This document shows positions 194 to 6,848 of a stretch of DNA of 6,848 bases, piece by piece. The notes below the pieces were generated by a model that had not been told where the DNA came from, made no database searches, and was given only the letters and a program-made list of their open reading frames with translations. A program made the translations under genes and the position numbers. The stretch is from Accumulibacter sp. (GTDB lineage Bacteria > Pseudomonadota > Gammaproteobacteria > Burkholderiales > Rhodocyclaceae). The DNA lies in assembly GCA_031276375.1 (NCBI GenBank), contig JAISNE010000065.1, positions 1 through 6,848 on the forward strand, given 5' to 3'. How positions within the stretch are numbered: the first letter of the stretch is position 1; every line of letters begins with the position of its first letter.

Positions 194-1243
194 TCACGGC
201 GAGGGCACTGTCGTCGACTGGCGAACGATCAGTTCCGGAACATAAATTGTTTCTCGGCCGGGGATGGACGGGGCTGCCAGCCGCGTACGAAGGTACTCGA
301 CCGCCTGAGCGGCCATCGCGCCGTAATCGGCGCCGAGGCTGGTGATGGTCGGCACCATCATCGACGATAACTTGATGTTATCCACGCCAATCAGGGAAAT
401 ATCCTTGGGCACCTTGACGCCGAGCTGTTGCAGCCCCGCGCAGATGCCAATGGTCACGATACTGTTGATGCCAATAACCGCCGTCGTGCCGGGATACGAC
501 TCGAGCAGCTTTTCCGCCGCTTTTTCGGCGAAGCCCGCGAGGCCGGAATCGCCGATCTCCGTATTTTCGTCGTCTTTGATGGAGATCACGAGCGGATCGC
601 TCAGACCATTCCTTTCGAGGGCCGCCACGTAACCGTCGAGTCTTGCGGTGCGGTTTGCCGATGAGGGGGGCGTGGTCAGAAAGGCAATCCGGCGATGTCC
701 AAGCGCCGCCAGATGGTCAACGGCTCTGGAAGTCGCCAGGGCATTATTGATCGAAACCACGTCGATTCCATTGAGGCCGCCGATGTCCACCAAGCGCAAA
801 TCGAACAGCGCGAAAGCGATGCCCCGCTTGACGTACTCACTCATGGCTGCGGCGTCCCTCAACTCCGATGTCGAGATGAAACCGCGCACACCGTATTCGA
901 TCAATTCGTCGATGAATGCCTTTTCGCGGGCCGCGTCTCGCTGGCCGTTGCCCAGGACCGGCCGCAAGCCGGCTTTCAGTGCCTCCTGATCCAAGGCCAA
1001 GGCCAGGTCGGCGTGATACGGATTGTCGATGCTCGGCACGAGCAGGCCGACCATCGGAGTTTGTCCACTTTTGAGTTGCAGCGCGACACGACTCGGCGAG
1101 TAACCCAGCTCCGCGATGCATTTTCTGATGCGTTCGATGGTTTCGGGGCGCAGGTGATGGTAACGCCCATTCTGATAATGGGAGACGCTCGACACGGAAA
1201 CTCCGGCCGCCTTGGCGACGTGCTGTATGGTGATGCGTTGCAT
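194..1243 (-). CDS. LacI/GalR-family transcriptional repressor, likely regulator of the adjacent TRAP operon
   Basis: This 349-residue protein has the usual length and layout of the LacI family. An N-terminal helix-turn-helix spans about residues 5-26 (TIQHVAKAAGVSVSSVSHYQ, then NG). A hinge follows at about 47-60 (GYSPSRVALQLKSG) with the conserved leucine that inserts into the minor groove. The rest, about 63-345, is a periplasmic-binding-protein-like effector and dimerisation domain, with typical segments such as VGLLVPSIDNPYHADLA and a late TSLGADYGAMAAQAVEYL. The turn after the recognition helix reads NGRYHHLRPET, the longer form found in one subset of the family rather than the short LacI/PurR form. 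The start is the ATG giving the standard MQRITIQHVA amino end; its upstream Shine-Dalgarno is weak. It is divergent from dctQ, and a CG-centred palindrome lies between them. The effector is probably the transported acid or a derivative; this is inferred from position only. Confidence 0.95.
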   Translation of the reverse strand: MQRITIQHVAKAAGVSVSSVSHYQNGRYHHLRPETIERIRKCIAELGYSPSRVALQLKSGQTPMVGLLVPSIDNPYHADLALALDQEALKAGLRPVLGNGQRDAAREKAFIDELIEYGVRGFISTSELRDAAAMSEYVKRGIAFALFDLRLVDIGGLNGIDVVSINNALATSRAVDHLAALGHRRIAFLTTPPSSANRTARLDGYVAALERNGLSDPLVISIKDDENTEIGDSGLAGFAEKAAEKLLESYPGTTAVIGINSIVTIGICAGLQQLGVKVPKDISLIGVDNIKLSSMMVPTITSLGADYGAMAAQAVEYLRTRLAAPSIPGRETIYVPELIVRQSTTVPSP

Positions 1244-1287
1244 TTTCTACGGACTATTGCCCGACGCGTTGTTCAGAGTGTTCGGAG

Positions 1288-1315
1288 TTGACATTACCAA
1301 AAATTTCTATAGGAT
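1288..1315 (+). promoter_or_regulatory. Predicted sigma70 promoter of the dctQMP operon
   Basis: A perfect -35 hexamer TTGACA lies at 1288-1293. Sixteen bases later TAGGAT (1310-1315) matches four of six -10 positions, in an AT-rich stretch. Transcription would start near 1322, giving a leader of about 64 bases before dctQ. The choice of -10 is the weak part, because TATAGG and GATAAA overlap it at less good spacing. Confidence 0.6.
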
Positions 1316-1322
1316 AAATCCC

Positions 1323-1336
1323 GTATAACGTTATAC
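1323..1336. promoter_or_regulatory. Putative LacI-family operator, perfect 14-bp palindrome
   Basis: GTATAACGTTATAC is its own reverse complement. The central CG flanked by AA and TT is the hallmark of LacI-family operators, in which the hinge helices pry open the central CpG step. It sits on the predicted transcription start of the TRAP operon, where bound repressor would block RNA polymerase, and about 80 bp upstream of the divergent lacI-type gene, so it could also mediate autoregulation. I saw no second good copy in the window. Confidence 0.75.
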
Positions 1337-1385
1337 TTGCAAACAAACATTTCGGGACGACGACGAATCGTCAAGGCAGGGGGAA

Positions 1386-1874
1386 ATGAAAAAAGCAGGG
1401 GTCATTGGCAAGCTTGCATCGTTCGAGGACGCACTATCCGTGCTGATCGTCTGCGTCATCAGTTTTGCGGTGTTCGTTCAAGTACTCTCCCGATTCGTGC
1501 TCAAGGCGCCCTTGTCGTGGACCGAGGAGTTGTCGCGTTTTGCCCTGATCTGGCTGACTTTCATCGCGGCTTCCGTCGCCTTGCGCGAGGGCGGACATTT
1601 CGTGGTGGATCTGGTCAGCCGCCGCTTGCCGCCGGGTCCGAGAAAGTATTATCACAAGCTCATTCTGCTGGTGGAACTGGTGTTCGTGACGGTGCTTTTC
1701 TATACCGGCTACCAGATCGTGCCGGTGGCGCACATGCAGGAATCGGCGGCGTTGGACATCCACATGAGCTACGTCTATCTGGCTATTCCGTGCGGGGCCG
1801 CGCTGATGATGATCAACACGTTGATCAAACTGTTTGGAAAATCCGGCGCGGAAGATCATGGGGAGCCGTCATGA
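1386..1874 (+). CDS. dctQ: TRAP transporter small permease (DctQ family)
   Basis: This is the small membrane subunit of a tripartite ATP-independent periplasmic transporter, which takes up organic acids using a sodium or proton gradient. The 162 residues suit the family. Four hydrophobic segments are visible at about 17-39, 51-66, 92-112 and 128-148. The DctQ signature follows the first of them: LSWTEELSRFALIWLTFIAA at 43-62, then SVALREGGHF with the charged loop leading to VDLVSRRLPP. The start is supported by AGGGGG at 1378-1383 just upstream and by a sensible MKK amino end before the first membrane helix. It is the first gene of the operon, and its TGA overlaps the dctM start as ATGA, indicating translational coupling. 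A longer reading frame from 1337 in the dctM phase overlaps this gene and is not a real gene start. Confidence 0.95.
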   Translation: MKKAGVIGKLASFEDALSVLIVCVISFAVFVQVLSRFVLKAPLSWTEELSRFALIWLTFIAASVALREGGHFVVDLVSRRLPPGPRKYYHKLILLVELVFVTVLFYTGYQIVPVAHMQESAALDIHMSYVYLAIPCGAALMMINTLIKLFGKSGAEDHGEPS

Positions 1875-3178
1875 TTTTTTTCCTCCTGTTTGCGCTTTTC
1901 CTGGTAGCGGGAATACCCATTGCCTTCAGCATGGGGTTGTCCGGACTGGTTTATCTCCTGATTTCCAGGGTGCCCCTCGCGGCGGTTCCGCAGGAAATAC
2001 TCGGCGGCGTGGATTCTTTCACCTTGCTGGCTATCCCCCTCTACATCTTTGCCGGAGAACTCATGGACGGGGGAGGGATATCGAGGCGGATACTGAACCT
2101 GGCGGATAATCTGGTCGGGCATATTCGCGGTGGCCTGGGACACGTGGTGGTGGTTGCCACGGTATTGCTTTCCGGGATTTCCGGTTCGTCGACCGCAGAT
2201 ACGGCAGCCATTGGTTCAGCGATGATTCCGACGATGGAGAAAAAGGGTTACAAGCGCGAGGAGGCGGTGGCGATCATCGCGGCCTGCGGGGGAATGGATA
2301 TTCTGGTGCCCCCCTGTATCACCATGATCATTCTGGGAGGCGTAGCGAATCTTTCCGTCGAGGCGCTTTTTTTCGGCGGGCTTCTACCGGCAGTAGCCAT
2401 GGCGCTCGCGCTGATGGCGGTGATTTATTTCGACGCTGCCAGGAACAACATTCCGAGCAACGAATGGAAAGGGATGAAAACGGTCGGACGGTCCTTTTTC
2501 GAGTCCTTCTGGGCCCTGATGATCCCGGTGATCATTCTCGGCGGTATCAGGATAGGCGCTTTTACCGCGACCGAAGGAGCCGTCGTGGCAGTTGTTTACG
2601 CGCTCTTCATCGCCATTTTCGTATACCGCGAGGTCAAATTTTCCGACATGTACGGCCTGATTCTCCGCTCGGCCAAGACGACCGGCTCAATCATGTTCCT
2701 GATCGGCGTCGCTTCCCTGTTCGCATGGATCACCGCTCGCGAGCAGATTCCGAACAAACTTCTCGCTTTCATGGCGGATTTCACAACCACGCCATACGTG
2801 TTCCTGCTAATCGTAAACGTCGTATTCCTGATTATCGGGGCCGTGCTGGAGGGGTCTCCGGCGGTGATCATCCTGACCCCGATATTCATGCCGATGGCGC
2901 TCAGTTATGGAATCGATCCGATTCATTTCGGGATCATCATCATCGCCAATATCGGCGTCGGCTTTCTGCTGCCGCCCGTAGGTCTGTGTCTGCTCGTGGC
3001 CTGTTCGGTCGGAAAGGTCGAGGTAATCAAGGTGATCAAGCCCATCATGCCGTACTTCGCGGCTTTGTTCGCCACGGTTATGGCGCTGACTTACCTGCCC
3101 GGCGTGGCATTGCTGTTGCCCAAAATGGTCGGATACATACCGAAAGGGACATTTACCGGCCTGACCGGCCTGTTTTAG
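1871..3178 (+). CDS. dctM: TRAP transporter large permease (DctM family)
   Basis: This is the large, transport-pathway subunit of the TRAP system. The protein is 435 residues, the standard size, with a dozen or so hydrophobic stretches from the first residue (MIFFLLFALFLVAGIPIAFS) onward. Family landmarks are visible in order: GGGISRRILNLADNLVGHIRG-type loop around 67-87; GISGSSTADTAAIG at 102-115 with the MIPTMEKKGY that follows; GAFTATEGA at 229-237, a second glycine/threonine-rich loop of the pseudo-symmetric repeat; and GVGFLLPPVGLCL near 362-374. I take the start at the ATG overlapping the dctQ stop by four bases, which places the first helix at the amino end as in homologues; the in-frame sequence upstream is noise inside dctQ. 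It should pair with DctQ in the inner membrane and receive substrate from DctP. Confidence 0.96.
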   Translation: MIFFLLFALFLVAGIPIAFSMGLSGLVYLLISRVPLAAVPQEILGGVDSFTLLAIPLYIFAGELMDGGGISRRILNLADNLVGHIRGGLGHVVVVATVLLSGISGSSTADTAAIGSAMIPTMEKKGYKREEAVAIIAACGGMDILVPPCITMIILGGVANLSVEALFFGGLLPAVAMALALMAVIYFDAARNNIPSNEWKGMKTVGRSFFESFWALMIPVIILGGIRIGAFTATEGAVVAVVYALFIAIFVYREVKFSDMYGLILRSAKTTGSIMFLIGVASLFAWITAREQIPNKLLAFMADFTTTPYVFLLIVNVVFLIIGAVLEGSPAVIILTPIFMPMALSYGIDPIHFGIIIIANIGVGFLLPPVGLCLLVACSVGKVEVIKVIKPIMPYFAALFATVMALTYLPGVALLLPKMVGYIPKGTFTGLTGLF

Positions 3179-3282
3179 GGGCTGCGCTTCGGGTTCTTCG
3201 GTTTGTCGAATGTTGTAGTTGTAGTACGGGGATCTGGGAAAACCAGACGAGGTGGTTGGCTTAAATTTCTTTTGGAGGCGAA

Positions 3283-4269
3283 ATGATTAATCGACAAGTT
3301 TTGACGGCCATTACCGCGATTGCGTTGTCCTGTTTCGCGGGCCTTGGTGTGGCACAGGACAAGATCGTCATCAAGGCGGCTCATACGACCAGTGAGGACT
3401 ATCCGTACCAGATCGGTCTTGTATCCATGGCCAAGGCCTTGAACGAGAAAACGTCCGGCAAGATGGAAATGCAGATATTCCCGAATGGAGCCTTGGGTGG
3501 GGATGAAAGAAAAGTCCTGGAATCGGTGCAACTGCAAACCGTAGGCATGACGGTGGTCAACGGAGCGGTCATCTCCAACTTTACCAAAAAGGCCGACGTA
3601 TTCAACTTACCGTTCATCTTCAGGGATACCAGTCATCTGTTTGCCGCCATGGACGGCGAGCCTGGGAAGATCATCGCGGATGAACTGGGAAAGAAAGGAC
3701 TCAGGATCATCGCCTGGTACGCCAATCCGGATCGCCACATGTTTACGACGAAGAAGCAGGTGACCAAGCTTGAGGATATGAAGGGGATGAAGATCCGAGT
3801 CACGCAGAGTCCCGTATCCCTTGCGACCTTCAAGGCGCTGGGCGCGTTGCCGACGCCGATGGCCTATGGTGAGCTCTATTCGGGGCTGCAGATGGGCGTG
3901 GTGGACGGCGGCGAAAACGATTGGTTCGGTATCCGCGGCATGAAATTTTACGAGGTGGCGAAAAACATCACCTTGACCGGACATTTCATGGTTGCCAGCC
4001 CGGTCGTCGTAAACAAGGGTTGGTATGAAAAACTGCCGGCAGACCTGAAGAGCGCTTTCGATGAATCCGCGGCCATCGGGCAAAAGGCGATGCGCGACTA
4101 CATGATCAACGAAACCAGCAAAATCCAGAAAGAAGTCGAGGCTTTGGGTGGAATCGTCGTTCCGGTCAGTGACATAGAAAAATGGCGTCAGGCCGTCGCC
4201 CCGGTCTATCCGGCGTTTTATGACACGATCGGCAAAGATTTGATCGAGATGGTGATCAACATCAAATAA
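3283..4269 (+). CDS. dctP: TRAP transporter periplasmic substrate-binding protein (DctP family)
   Basis: This 328-residue protein is the extracytoplasmic receptor of the TRAP system. A Sec signal peptide covers about residues 1-24 (hydrophobic core LTAITAIALSCFAGLGVA, probable cleavage after GVA). The mature protein shows the DctP pattern: KIVIKAAHTT at the start, IFPNGALGGDERKVLESVQL at 65-84, NLPFIFRD at 108-115, MKGMKIRV at 166-173 with Arg172 as the expected carboxylate-binding arginine, AYGELYSGLQMGVVDGGEND at 194-213, and a C-terminal helical part. NPDRHMFTTK at 148-157 supplies another likely ligand-lining arginine (R151). These features point to a carboxylated ligand; a sugar acid is plausible but not proven. 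A strong GGAGG at 3274-3278 sets the start. The gene follows dctM after 104 bp, so it is the last gene of a Q-M-P operon, and its own strong ribosome site suits a binding protein needed in excess. Confidence 0.96.
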   Translation: MINRQVLTAITAIALSCFAGLGVAQDKIVIKAAHTTSEDYPYQIGLVSMAKALNEKTSGKMEMQIFPNGALGGDERKVLESVQLQTVGMTVVNGAVISNFTKKADVFNLPFIFRDTSHLFAAMDGEPGKIIADELGKKGLRIIAWYANPDRHMFTTKKQVTKLEDMKGMKIRVTQSPVSLATFKALGALPTPMAYGELYSGLQMGVVDGGENDWFGIRGMKFYEVAKNITLTGHFMVASPVVVNKGWYEKLPADLKSAFDESAAIGQKAMRDYMINETSKIQKEVEALGGIVVPVSDIEKWRQAVAPVYPAFYDTIGKDLIEMVINIK

Positions 4270-4616: not shown

Positions 4617-5687
<1,071 letters not shown>

Positions 5688-6008
5688 CCGGAAAACCGCG
5701 CCGCGATGACCCGCCGGATTTGACTTATGTACAAATTTATGATGCCGCGGCCAACTTTCGGGGGAAAACCGGGAAAATCAGAGGCTTGTCTGTATCTTGT
5801 TGATTTTATTGGTTTTTTTGAACGCCACTTTTTGCGGCAACAGGCGATGAAGCCTTGAAACAGGCGGGTTTGAGCCGTTCTTTCGCAAAAGGTTCCACAG
5901 ACTTATCCACAGGAAATGTGTACAACGAAAAATAGCCTGACGAGCTAACGAGTTACAGTGATTTTGCAGAAAATGGACGAGCAAGTGGCGCTAATCAGGG
6001 GGCAGGTG
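5688..6008. other. Intergenic region after hemE with AT-rich stretch and DnaA-box-like sites
   Basis: I see no credible gene in this stretch. It contains an AT-rich run at about 5788-5820 (TTGATTTTATTGGTTTTTTT) and, some 80 bp further on, a group of DnaA-box-like nonamers. Composition is clearly lower in GC than in the genes on either side. An 8-bp GC-rich inverted repeat (5673-5680 with 5696-5703) spans the hemE stop codon without a T tract. Confidence 0.5.
5891..5925. promoter_or_regulatory. DnaA-box cluster
   Basis: TTATCCACA at 5903-5911 is a perfect match to the high-affinity DnaA box. GGTTCCACA at 5891-5899 shares the CCACA core with two mismatches, and TGTGTACAA at 5917-5925 is the minus-strand TTGTACACA, one mismatch from TTWTNCACA. 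A further one-mismatch site, TTATGTACA, lies at 5725-5733. One perfect nonamer can arise by chance, so the case rests on clustering. The role could be DnaA titration, local regulation, or part of an origin region. Confidence 0.4.
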
Positions 6009-6053
6009 TCAGGGATCAGGAGTCAGGGATCAGGGATCAGGGATCAGGAATCA
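6009..6053 (+). repeat. 7-bp tandem repeat array, TCAGGGA type
   Basis: Six consecutive heptamers run from 6009 to 6050: TCAGGGA, TCAGGAG, TCAGGGA, TCAGGGA, TCAGGGA, TCAGGAA, followed by a partial TCA. Its last units overlap the start of the first copy of the 140-bp repeat. The array is noncoding here. Confidence 0.85.
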
Positions 6054-6182
6054 AAAGCCGGGACAGTATGAATAACGCAAAACCATCCGCGCCCGACGGG
6101 CACTCCGCTTTTTCCACGCAACGGAGCGAAGCGACGGAAACCTTACTGTCTTCTGTCCTCCGTCCTCTGTCCTCTGACCCCC
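6043..6182 (+). repeat. 140-bp direct repeat, copy 1
   Basis: This unit begins ATCAGGAATCAAAAGCCGGG and matches the copy beginning at 6183 at about 133 of 139 aligned positions, with no gaps. Mismatches are at 6072, 6090, 6118, 6151, 6161 and 6177. It contains a small hairpin GCCCG-A-CGGGC at 6091-6101, an inverted pair CTCCG (6103-6107) and CGGAG (6122-6126), and ends in five CTGTCCT-type heptamers (6146-6180). A 47-codon open frame runs from ATG 6068 to TGA 6209-6211, overlapping the priA-frame ATG as ATGA; I regard it as a by-product of the repeat rather than a gene. Confidence 0.9.
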
Positions 6183-6321
6183 ATCAGGAATCAAAAGCCG
6201 GGACAGTATGAGTAACGCAAAACCATCCGTGCCCGACGGGCACTCCGCTTTTTCCACTCAACGGAGCGAAGCGACGGAAACCTTACTGTCCTCTGTCCTC
6301 TGTCCTCTGTCCTCTGCCCCC
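6183..6321 (+). repeat. 140-bp direct repeat, copy 2, fused into the priA reading frame
   Basis: This is the second tandem unit, directly abutting copy 1. It has four perfect CTGTCCT heptamers (6286-6313) followed by CTGCCCC, where copy 1 has a more degenerate array. The high identity of the copies indicates a fairly recent duplication. From ATG 6208 this copy reads without a stop into the conserved start of PriA, and its right end lies only a few bases before the first conserved PriA codon at 6325. Confidence 0.9.
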
Positions 6322-6848
6322 TCCATCGCCCGCGTCGCGCTGGCCGTGCCGCTGCCGCGCCTGTTCGACTACCGGGTGCCGCCGGAGGAGACGTTGACGC
6401 CGGAGGATATCGGACGCCGGGTGCGGGTCGGTTTCGGGACGCGCTCGTGCATCGGCATCATCGTCGATCTGGCCGATTCCTCCGAACTGCCCGCCGAACA
6501 ATTGAAGCCGCTGGAAGCCGTGCTGCGCGACCTGCCCGCGCTGCCGGCGGACTGGTTCCGCCTGACCGAATTCTGTGCGTCGTACTACCAGACGCCTCTT
6601 GGCGAAGTGATGCTGTCGACCCTGCCCGCCGGTTTGCGCCGCGTCGATCCGCCCCGGGCGCGCGCGGCCCGGCGTCCGCCGAAGCCGGCCCCGGCGCAGG
6701 AAGCGCCGGAACTGACCGGGGAACAGCGCCAGACGCTCGAACGCCTCGCCGCCGACGCGCCGGGCTTTCACGCCTACCTGCTGCACGGCGTCACCGGCAG
6801 CGGCAAGACCGAGATCTACCTGCGCCTGACCGAACGAACGCTGGCCGC
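6208..6848 (+). CDS. priA: Primosomal protein N' (replication restart helicase PriA), N-terminal part, cut by the window edge
   Basis: PriA recognises stalled forks and reloads the replisome as a superfamily 2 helicase. From codon 6325 the protein reads IARVALAVPLPRLFDYRVPP, the amino end of the 3'-DNA-binding domain, continuing through GRRVRVGFGTRSCIGIIVDL and EFCASYYQTPLGEVMLSTLP to about residue 140. A proline/arginine-rich linker of some 30 residues follows, then the helicase core begins: ELTGEQRQTLERLAADAPGF and Walker A GVTGSGKT at 194-201 (Lys200), then EIYLRLTERTLA. Two things are odd. The only conventional in-frame starts before the conserved domain are ATG 6208 and GTG 6229, both inside the 140-bp repeat, giving up to 39 extra residues. 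Counting from the conserved IARVAL segment, Walker A lies about 67 residues earlier than in E. coli PriA, so the winged-helix domain appears absent. Zinc-binding and later helicase motifs lie beyond the edge. The identity is firm; the start is uncertain. Confidence 0.93.
   Translation, partial: MSNAKPSVPDGHSAFSTQRSEATETLLSSVLCPLSSAPSIARVALAVPLPRLFDYRVPPEETLTPEDIGRRVRVGFGTRSCIGIIVDLADSSELPAEQLKPLEAVLRDLPALPADWFRLTEFCASYYQTPLGEVMLSTLPAGLRRVDPPRARAARRPPKPAPAQEAPELTGEQRQTLERLAADAPGFHAYLLHGVTGSGKTEIYLRLTERTLA
6286..6320 (+). repeat. 7-bp tandem repeat array, CTGTCCT type, inside the priA reading frame
   Basis: Four perfect CTGTCCT units (6286-6313) and one degenerate CTGCCCC (6314-6320) are read in the priA frame as LSSVLCPLSSAP. 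Because the unit is not a multiple of three, a change of one unit would shift the frame relative to ATG 6208. Confidence 0.8.

Follow-up and report, generated by a model that had tools for sequence, protein, structure and literature searches.

In the Accumulibacter sp. contig analysed here (C151; "the window" denotes the whole stretch of 6,848 nt), a dispersed repeat with heptamer arms sits where the start of priA lies in relatives, and we consider it probable, at roughly 0.6, that PriA is translated from the ATG of this repeat at position 6208, which would give the protein 39 additional and probably disordered residues. Insertion of the element, or a later rearrangement of its array, would have removed the native ATG. 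The core of the element would then stop the incoming reading frame while its ATG opens the frame of priA, and termination–reinitiation at an ATGA overlap may help to load ribosomes at 6208. The 39-residue extension would be tolerated, the N-terminus of PriA presumably accepting added residues.

All features of the locus lie on the forward strand. The hemE gene (uroporphyrinogen decarboxylase, PF01208; 4617..5687), the conserved upstream neighbour of priA, is followed by a foreign stretch with a G-rich heptamer array at its 5' edge, (ATCAGGG)n with 8.6 units (5994..6053), detected by Tandem Repeats Finder (TRF); similar arrays occur elsewhere in the genome. The final 11 nt of this array overlap the first of two tandem copies of a 140-bp unit, copy 1 (6043..6181, delimited by repeat comparison and TRF) and copy 2 (6183..6321, whose junction with priA has a match on contig C314). 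The tandem repeat named in the preliminary description is thus present, with copies of 139 nt at 96% identity, a spacing of 140 and a TRF score of 514. Only TCC (6322–6324) separates the end of copy 2 from codon 6325, where the conserved body of PriA begins (6325..6848), comprising the 3'BD domain and the start of the helicase before the contig end cuts the gene. The PriA_3primeBD profile (PF17764) matches residues 42–140 of the 213-aa frame with 93.6 bits against a cut-off of 22.7, and its start at residue 42 lies 2 residues past codon 6325. Over the N-terminal part that is present, the protein is 57–83% identical to PriA of the same genus. No 3' part of priA was found in the source assembly, which is fragmented (2.3 Mb in 451 contigs, 75% complete). 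A search of the window against Rfam gave no match. The remainder of the window includes an ordinary gene set at 194–4269, a LacI-type regulator with the TRAP transporter components DctQ, DctM and DctP. The gap between hemE and priA holds a perfect DnaA-box-like TTATCCACA at 5903–5911, a motif also visible in the same gap of several relatives.

To place the native start, priA was compared among 29 relatives, 26 of the same genus and 3 of the same family. Alignment with relatives lacking the repeat, which the preliminary description had put forward as a check, showed that 27 of the 29 have their nearest canonical start 2–6 codons ahead of the aligned start of the domain. The two exceptions are a GTG at codon −14 with a strong Shine–Dalgarno (SD) match in G014 and an ATG at −12 in G005. 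In a database search that used a related PriA as query, 100 of the 120 proteins listed had exactly 2 residues before the motif. The gene immediately before priA is hemE in 27 of the 29 relative loci, as it is in locus L071 (Azoarcus sp. Md513_bin116), so the neighbourhood on contig C151 is normal and only the last stretch before priA is foreign. In G003, hemE is missing from the 4.8 kb upstream of priA, and in G020 it is missing from the 0.5 kb that is present. The nearest named relatives are the metagenome-assembled genomes (MAGs) Accumulibacter sp. Po218_bin15, Cf509_bin25 and Ncb351_bin41 and Azoarcus sp. Md513_bin116; we take names of the Po218_bin15 or Md513_bin116 type to come from termite-gut surveys. 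The genome of G025 is rich in the same heptamer arrays.

Upstream of 6325 the priA frame contains 49 codons without a stop, the first of them at 6178, next to the TGA at 6175, and it spans the whole of copy 2. Codons 6178–6324 hold ATG 6208 and GTG 6229 as their only canonical starts, and none stands near 6325, as had been described; the near-cognate codons in the same stretch are ATC 6190, CTG 6286 and CTG 6307. What is remarkable here is a conserved gene that lacks its native start; the length of the open stretch is not itself remarkable, with a probability of about 0.38 under its own first-order composition. The GGGA noted before ATG 6208 is found at 6200–6203, and the modest SD match of this codon (−4.0 kcal/mol; median of the native priA starts in the 29 relatives, −2.5) is better than that of 22 of the 29 native starts, with 6 stronger and 1 equal. 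Its best match lies merely 3 nt from the ATG. In the minimum free energy fold, the SD sequence of 6208 falls inside the element's own GGACAGTA/TACTGTCC stem, in a fold that as a whole is no better than those of shuffled sequences (z = −0.89). A promoter scan of 5650–6400, a procedure of low power with 0.2 hits expected in shuffles, found none. The alternative start GTG 6229 is indeed present in frame, but it has a weak SD match (−2.2) and is GCG in the second allele described below, and we rejected it. Just past the proposed start, copy 2 contains a terminator-like stem with a T-run (6229–6243), which the GTG variant completes; without translation of the leader ORF, it might serve as an attenuator.

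A start at the edge of the domain, at CTG 6307 or ATC 6325, would yield a PriA of normal length and leave the repeat as 5' untranslated sequence. This reading, which we regard as unlikely, can draw on the position of CTG 6307 at codon −6, comparable to the ATGs at −6 in G010 and −5 in G003, on the residues LSSAPS after CTG 6307, which resemble MSSVAP and MSAAS, and on the array of L071, which likewise places CTG at −3 and −10. It is also in keeping with the database relative P0136, whose called start is a codon read as V that coincides with the first residue of the motif, and with an extension that bears no clear sign of constraint. Against these points, neither CTG 6307 nor ATC 6325 has an SD match. 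CTG 6307 belongs to the right-arm array (CTGTCCT)n of copy 2 (6286..6316, TRF), and such an array places a CTG in every frame each 21 nt; because an in-frame CTG is thus automatic, CTG 6307 does not point to decay of a native start, and for this reason, and for want of an SD match, that reading was not adopted as the main one. The residues LSSAP before the PriA domain probably also derive from the element and not from a former MSxAP, since copy 1 ends CTCTGACCCC before unrelated sequence follows, and L003, L011 and L020, among 15 other arrays inspected, end CTCCGACCCC or CTCCGCCCCC; others end differently. Of the two possibilities raised in the preliminary description, a start inside the repeat and a rare start at the domain edge, ATG 6208 is the better fit, being shared between the alleles and preceded by an SD match.

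A second 5' end of priA occurs in the same assembly on contig C314 (L061), which carries the first 87 codons of the body, 97% identical to those of the window, behind one copy of the 140-bp unit. Its upstream region differs from that of C151 and lacks hemE; the synteny breaks exactly at a heptamer array, as it would in recombination at the array or in an assembly chimera. The C314 extension shares with that of the window its ATG, which lies in the frame of priA, and its length of 39 codons with no indel, and the frame 6208..6324 is therefore open in both alleles. The extensions differ at 8 of 117 nt and the bodies at 6 of 261 (Fisher p = 0.04, the extension being the faster), with 4 of the 8 differences in the extension and 3 of the 6 in the body non-synonymous. 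Because the extensions differ at 8 of 117 nt, the junction between element and priA exists in two distinct sequences and cannot be one error that was copied. Ten pairwise comparisons of element copies gave pN/pS values of about 0.4 to 1.2, and substitution counts gave no clear sign of selection on the extension.

The junction could instead mark a defective allele or pseudogene, with other cells of the population keeping the native start. We hold this to be quite improbable. The contig does end within priA, the 3' part of the gene is missing from the assembly, one bin has two priA 5' contigs with different upstream neighbours, and a search for the N-terminal part of priA in G025 (same genus, 88% complete) found no match. 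Yet both alleles lack the native start and both keep the open fusion, and a search of the assembly for a third priA 5' end found none. The substitution pattern of the body also resembles that of relatives: uncorrected values are pS 0.29 and pN 0.10 between the window and G014, and pS 0.27 and pN 0.11 between G014 and G003. The priA body accordingly looks constrained as in relatives and seems to evolve like a working gene. A native ATG hidden at the array edge by repeat collapse or chimerism is very improbable: although the bin is fragmented, repeats break assemblies and hemE is replaced by another region exactly at the array of C314, the same junction stands on two contigs with diverged extensions, the two tandem copies are distinguished by point changes, and contig C151 has hemE synteny in its favour.

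The repeat itself is 140 bp long, occurs in many dispersed copies and holds no transposase gene. A 351-nt element query gave 79 matches in its own genome, and a 282-nt query matched at least 9 of the 28 genomes of the genus, its own included. In L114 and in many short-core elements the termini are inverted repeats, (AGGACAG)n facing (CTGTCCT)n round a core, the common short form consisting of (AGGACAG)n, the palindromic core GGCGCGAAGCGCC and (CTGTCCT)n. Most of the element matches listed cover one arm and its junction. Copy 2 in the window keeps just the inner GGACAGTA/TACTGTCC pair and the right array. Judged from these features, the 140-bp unit belongs, as a copy with a long core, to a MITE-like family whose arms are heptamer arrays. 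The long core, ATGA(A/G)TAACGCAAAACC, was found only in its own genome (G000) and in G025, among the matches listed and the loci inspected; the copies in G025 lie beside an ORF with an aminotransferase domain, out of frame with that ORF (C167), and behind ilvA (C353). All five long-core copies found carry the ATG, with a frame that stays open from it through the core, and two of the five are fused to priA; the start codon therefore belongs to the element.

Neither arm, (CTGTCCT)n or (AGGACAG)n, contains a stop in any frame. The core ATGAGTAA (or ATGAATAA), in which the proposed start 6208..6210 lies, reads ATG in one of the three frames and a stop, TGA or TAA, in each of the others, so that the element is able to terminate a frame entering it and to start one that leaves it. 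In-frame placement has a chance of 1 in 3. In both alleles the proposed ATG of priA overlaps the stop of an upstream ORF by 4 nt as ATGA. The upstream ORF in the window is the 47-codon ORF of copy 1 (6068..6211), whose TGA at 6209–6211 overlaps ATG 6208 and which is a candidate for coupling; in C314 it is an unrelated 58-codon ORF with a GGAG motif. A Pfam search with the 58-codon ORF gave no match. The overlap in the window follows from the duplication, given the length of the tandem unit and the ATGA of the core. Since the upstream ORF ends in an ATGA overlap, reinitiation at 6208 is possible; for ATGA or TGATG overlapping pairs, 13 of 14 tested have been reported as strictly coupled (PMC6728339).

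An AlphaFold model assigns low confidence and no secondary structure to residues 1–39, and its first strand starts at residue 40, which corresponds to codon 6325; the extension is probably unstructured, as far as the model indicates. The sequences of the solved PriA chains 6dgd, 4nl4 and 6dcr, retrieved by a PDB sequence search, have tag residues at the same N-terminal end, and a preprimosome study describes PriA purified with an N-terminal His tag (PMC13377028). Given an unstructured model and tags at the same end of PriA chains, the extension should be tolerable.

Locus L071 offers a further case of an array next to priA. An array of the CTGTCTCC type lies directly before the priA body, and before the gene a repeat-rich frame of 222 codons (2365–3030) runs uninterrupted from an ATG; the other two frames contain 1 and 5 stops. 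An open frame of this kind has a chance of about 0.08 under its own composition, which is weak taken alone. A pattern survey for other starts lost near arrays covered 38 loci, 31 from the same genome (some overlapping) and 7 from relatives, in frames open for at least 100 codons, and gave no further case convincing by eye; one candidate, L024/L029, was inspected closely and dropped as probably non-coding. Start replacement seems, on these sequences, to be rare among the loci examined. At L014/L062 (G000:C99), a murG-like gene with Glyco_transf_28 domains has its ATG directly abutted by a heptamer array.

Stops are replaced by repeats of the same kind at two gene ends in relatives. In G025, the native stop of ilvA is replaced by the (AGGACAG) arm of a long-core copy (L114:1443–1508), and the frame passes LFLG and continues for 21 codons across the left arm until it meets the TGA within the ATGA of the element. 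The normal end is LFLG* in G020, G003, G014 and G010. The native stop was read by pattern in 7 of 24 relatives' loci, with 17 misfits left uncounted, and the seven ends comprise four LFLG and three LFLGR, LFLD or LFLS. In G021:C66 (L145/L112, near 30720–30751), the stop of a NUDIX/thiamine-monophosphate-synthase gene is replaced by a heptamer array, and the protein reads MRGWG followed by GQKTEDGGQRTE from the array. The same gene in relatives stops 0–4 residues past the W of MRGW in 11 of the 11 loci read; the pattern could be read in 11 of the 12 relatives' loci given, and a thirteenth, L156, a partial match, was left out. These reading frames indicate that repeats of one kind replace a start in one species and stops in others. 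A possible third case lies in L022 (G000:C358), where an ORF with a Peptidase_M48 match has a C-terminus that runs into a short-core element, and a search of relatives in the genus with its C-terminal half gave no match.

In-frame fusions of bacterial MITEs with genes have been described before, the elements concerned including the Rickettsia palindromic elements (RPE), Correia and ERIC (PMC2229807, PMC10969869). MITEAba12 of Acinetobacter is reported to give its neighbours four N-terminal residues or a stop (PMC6382973) and, as described there, is likewise a small inverted-repeat element. The priA element is unlike that description in its predicted contribution of 39 codons to a conserved replication gene, in its heptamer arms free of stops in every frame and in its ATGA overlap. 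RPE are described as palindromic elements of about 100–150 bp whose open frame is joined in frame to that of conserved genes, and for one fusion protein, Gmk, both production and activity were demonstrated (PMC10969869, PMC2229807). They resemble the present case in that the open frame of an element is fused in frame to a conserved gene, here the predicted fusion to priA, but they are described as inserted within genes, whereas the element here takes a gene terminus together with its start or stop codon.

Heptamers of the GGGNATC type in Xanthomonas and Nostoc form dispersed arrays that crowd gene ends, some overlapping stop codons, as the arrays described here also crowd gene ends (PMC4692102). 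In that account, the G-rich strand is the antisense one where an array lies upstream of an ORF and the sense one at stop codons, and an association with mobile elements was generally not found (PMC4692102). The units here, ATCAGGG and CTGTCCT, are not of the GGGNATC form, and unlike the repeats of that account they stand as inverted repeats round a core and coincide with a lost start codon. The 4-nt stop/start overlap with an upstream ORF is that of ATGA-coupled gene pairs (PMC6728339), but it is built into a repeat element here and the upstream ORF differs between the alleles. With the terms used, a search of open-licence papers found, among the papers listed, no description of this heptamer-armed family. 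A narrow search on MITE-supplied start codons gave nothing, and a broader one reached MITEAba12 and the other cases cited. Gene ends made by MITEs are thus already known; what is unusual is the combination of stop-free heptamer arms, a core carrying start and stop codons, a conserved replication gene and the replacement, by one kind of repeat, of a start in one species and of stops in others.

A more general and speculative proposal, which we put forward only tentatively, is that this family of mobile elements may have evolved into a patch for gene ends. On landing at a gene boundary, its stop-free arms, which any frame can traverse, and the 8-nt core ATGAGTAA, which stops two frames and starts the third, would overwrite the ends of conserved genes such as priA and ilvA with a new stop or a coupled start, and the tails so produced would drift as raw material.

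If translation from ATG 6208 is correct, the start codon of a core replication-restart gene is provided by a selfish repeat on which the gene depends, and other genes owe their stops to repeats of that type. It would then be understandable that such repeats crowd gene boundaries and yet do not kill the host. It would also provide a route to new protein tails, and would serve as a warning that gene callers misplace starts at such loci, as in L071, where the database version of PriA begins inside the domain.
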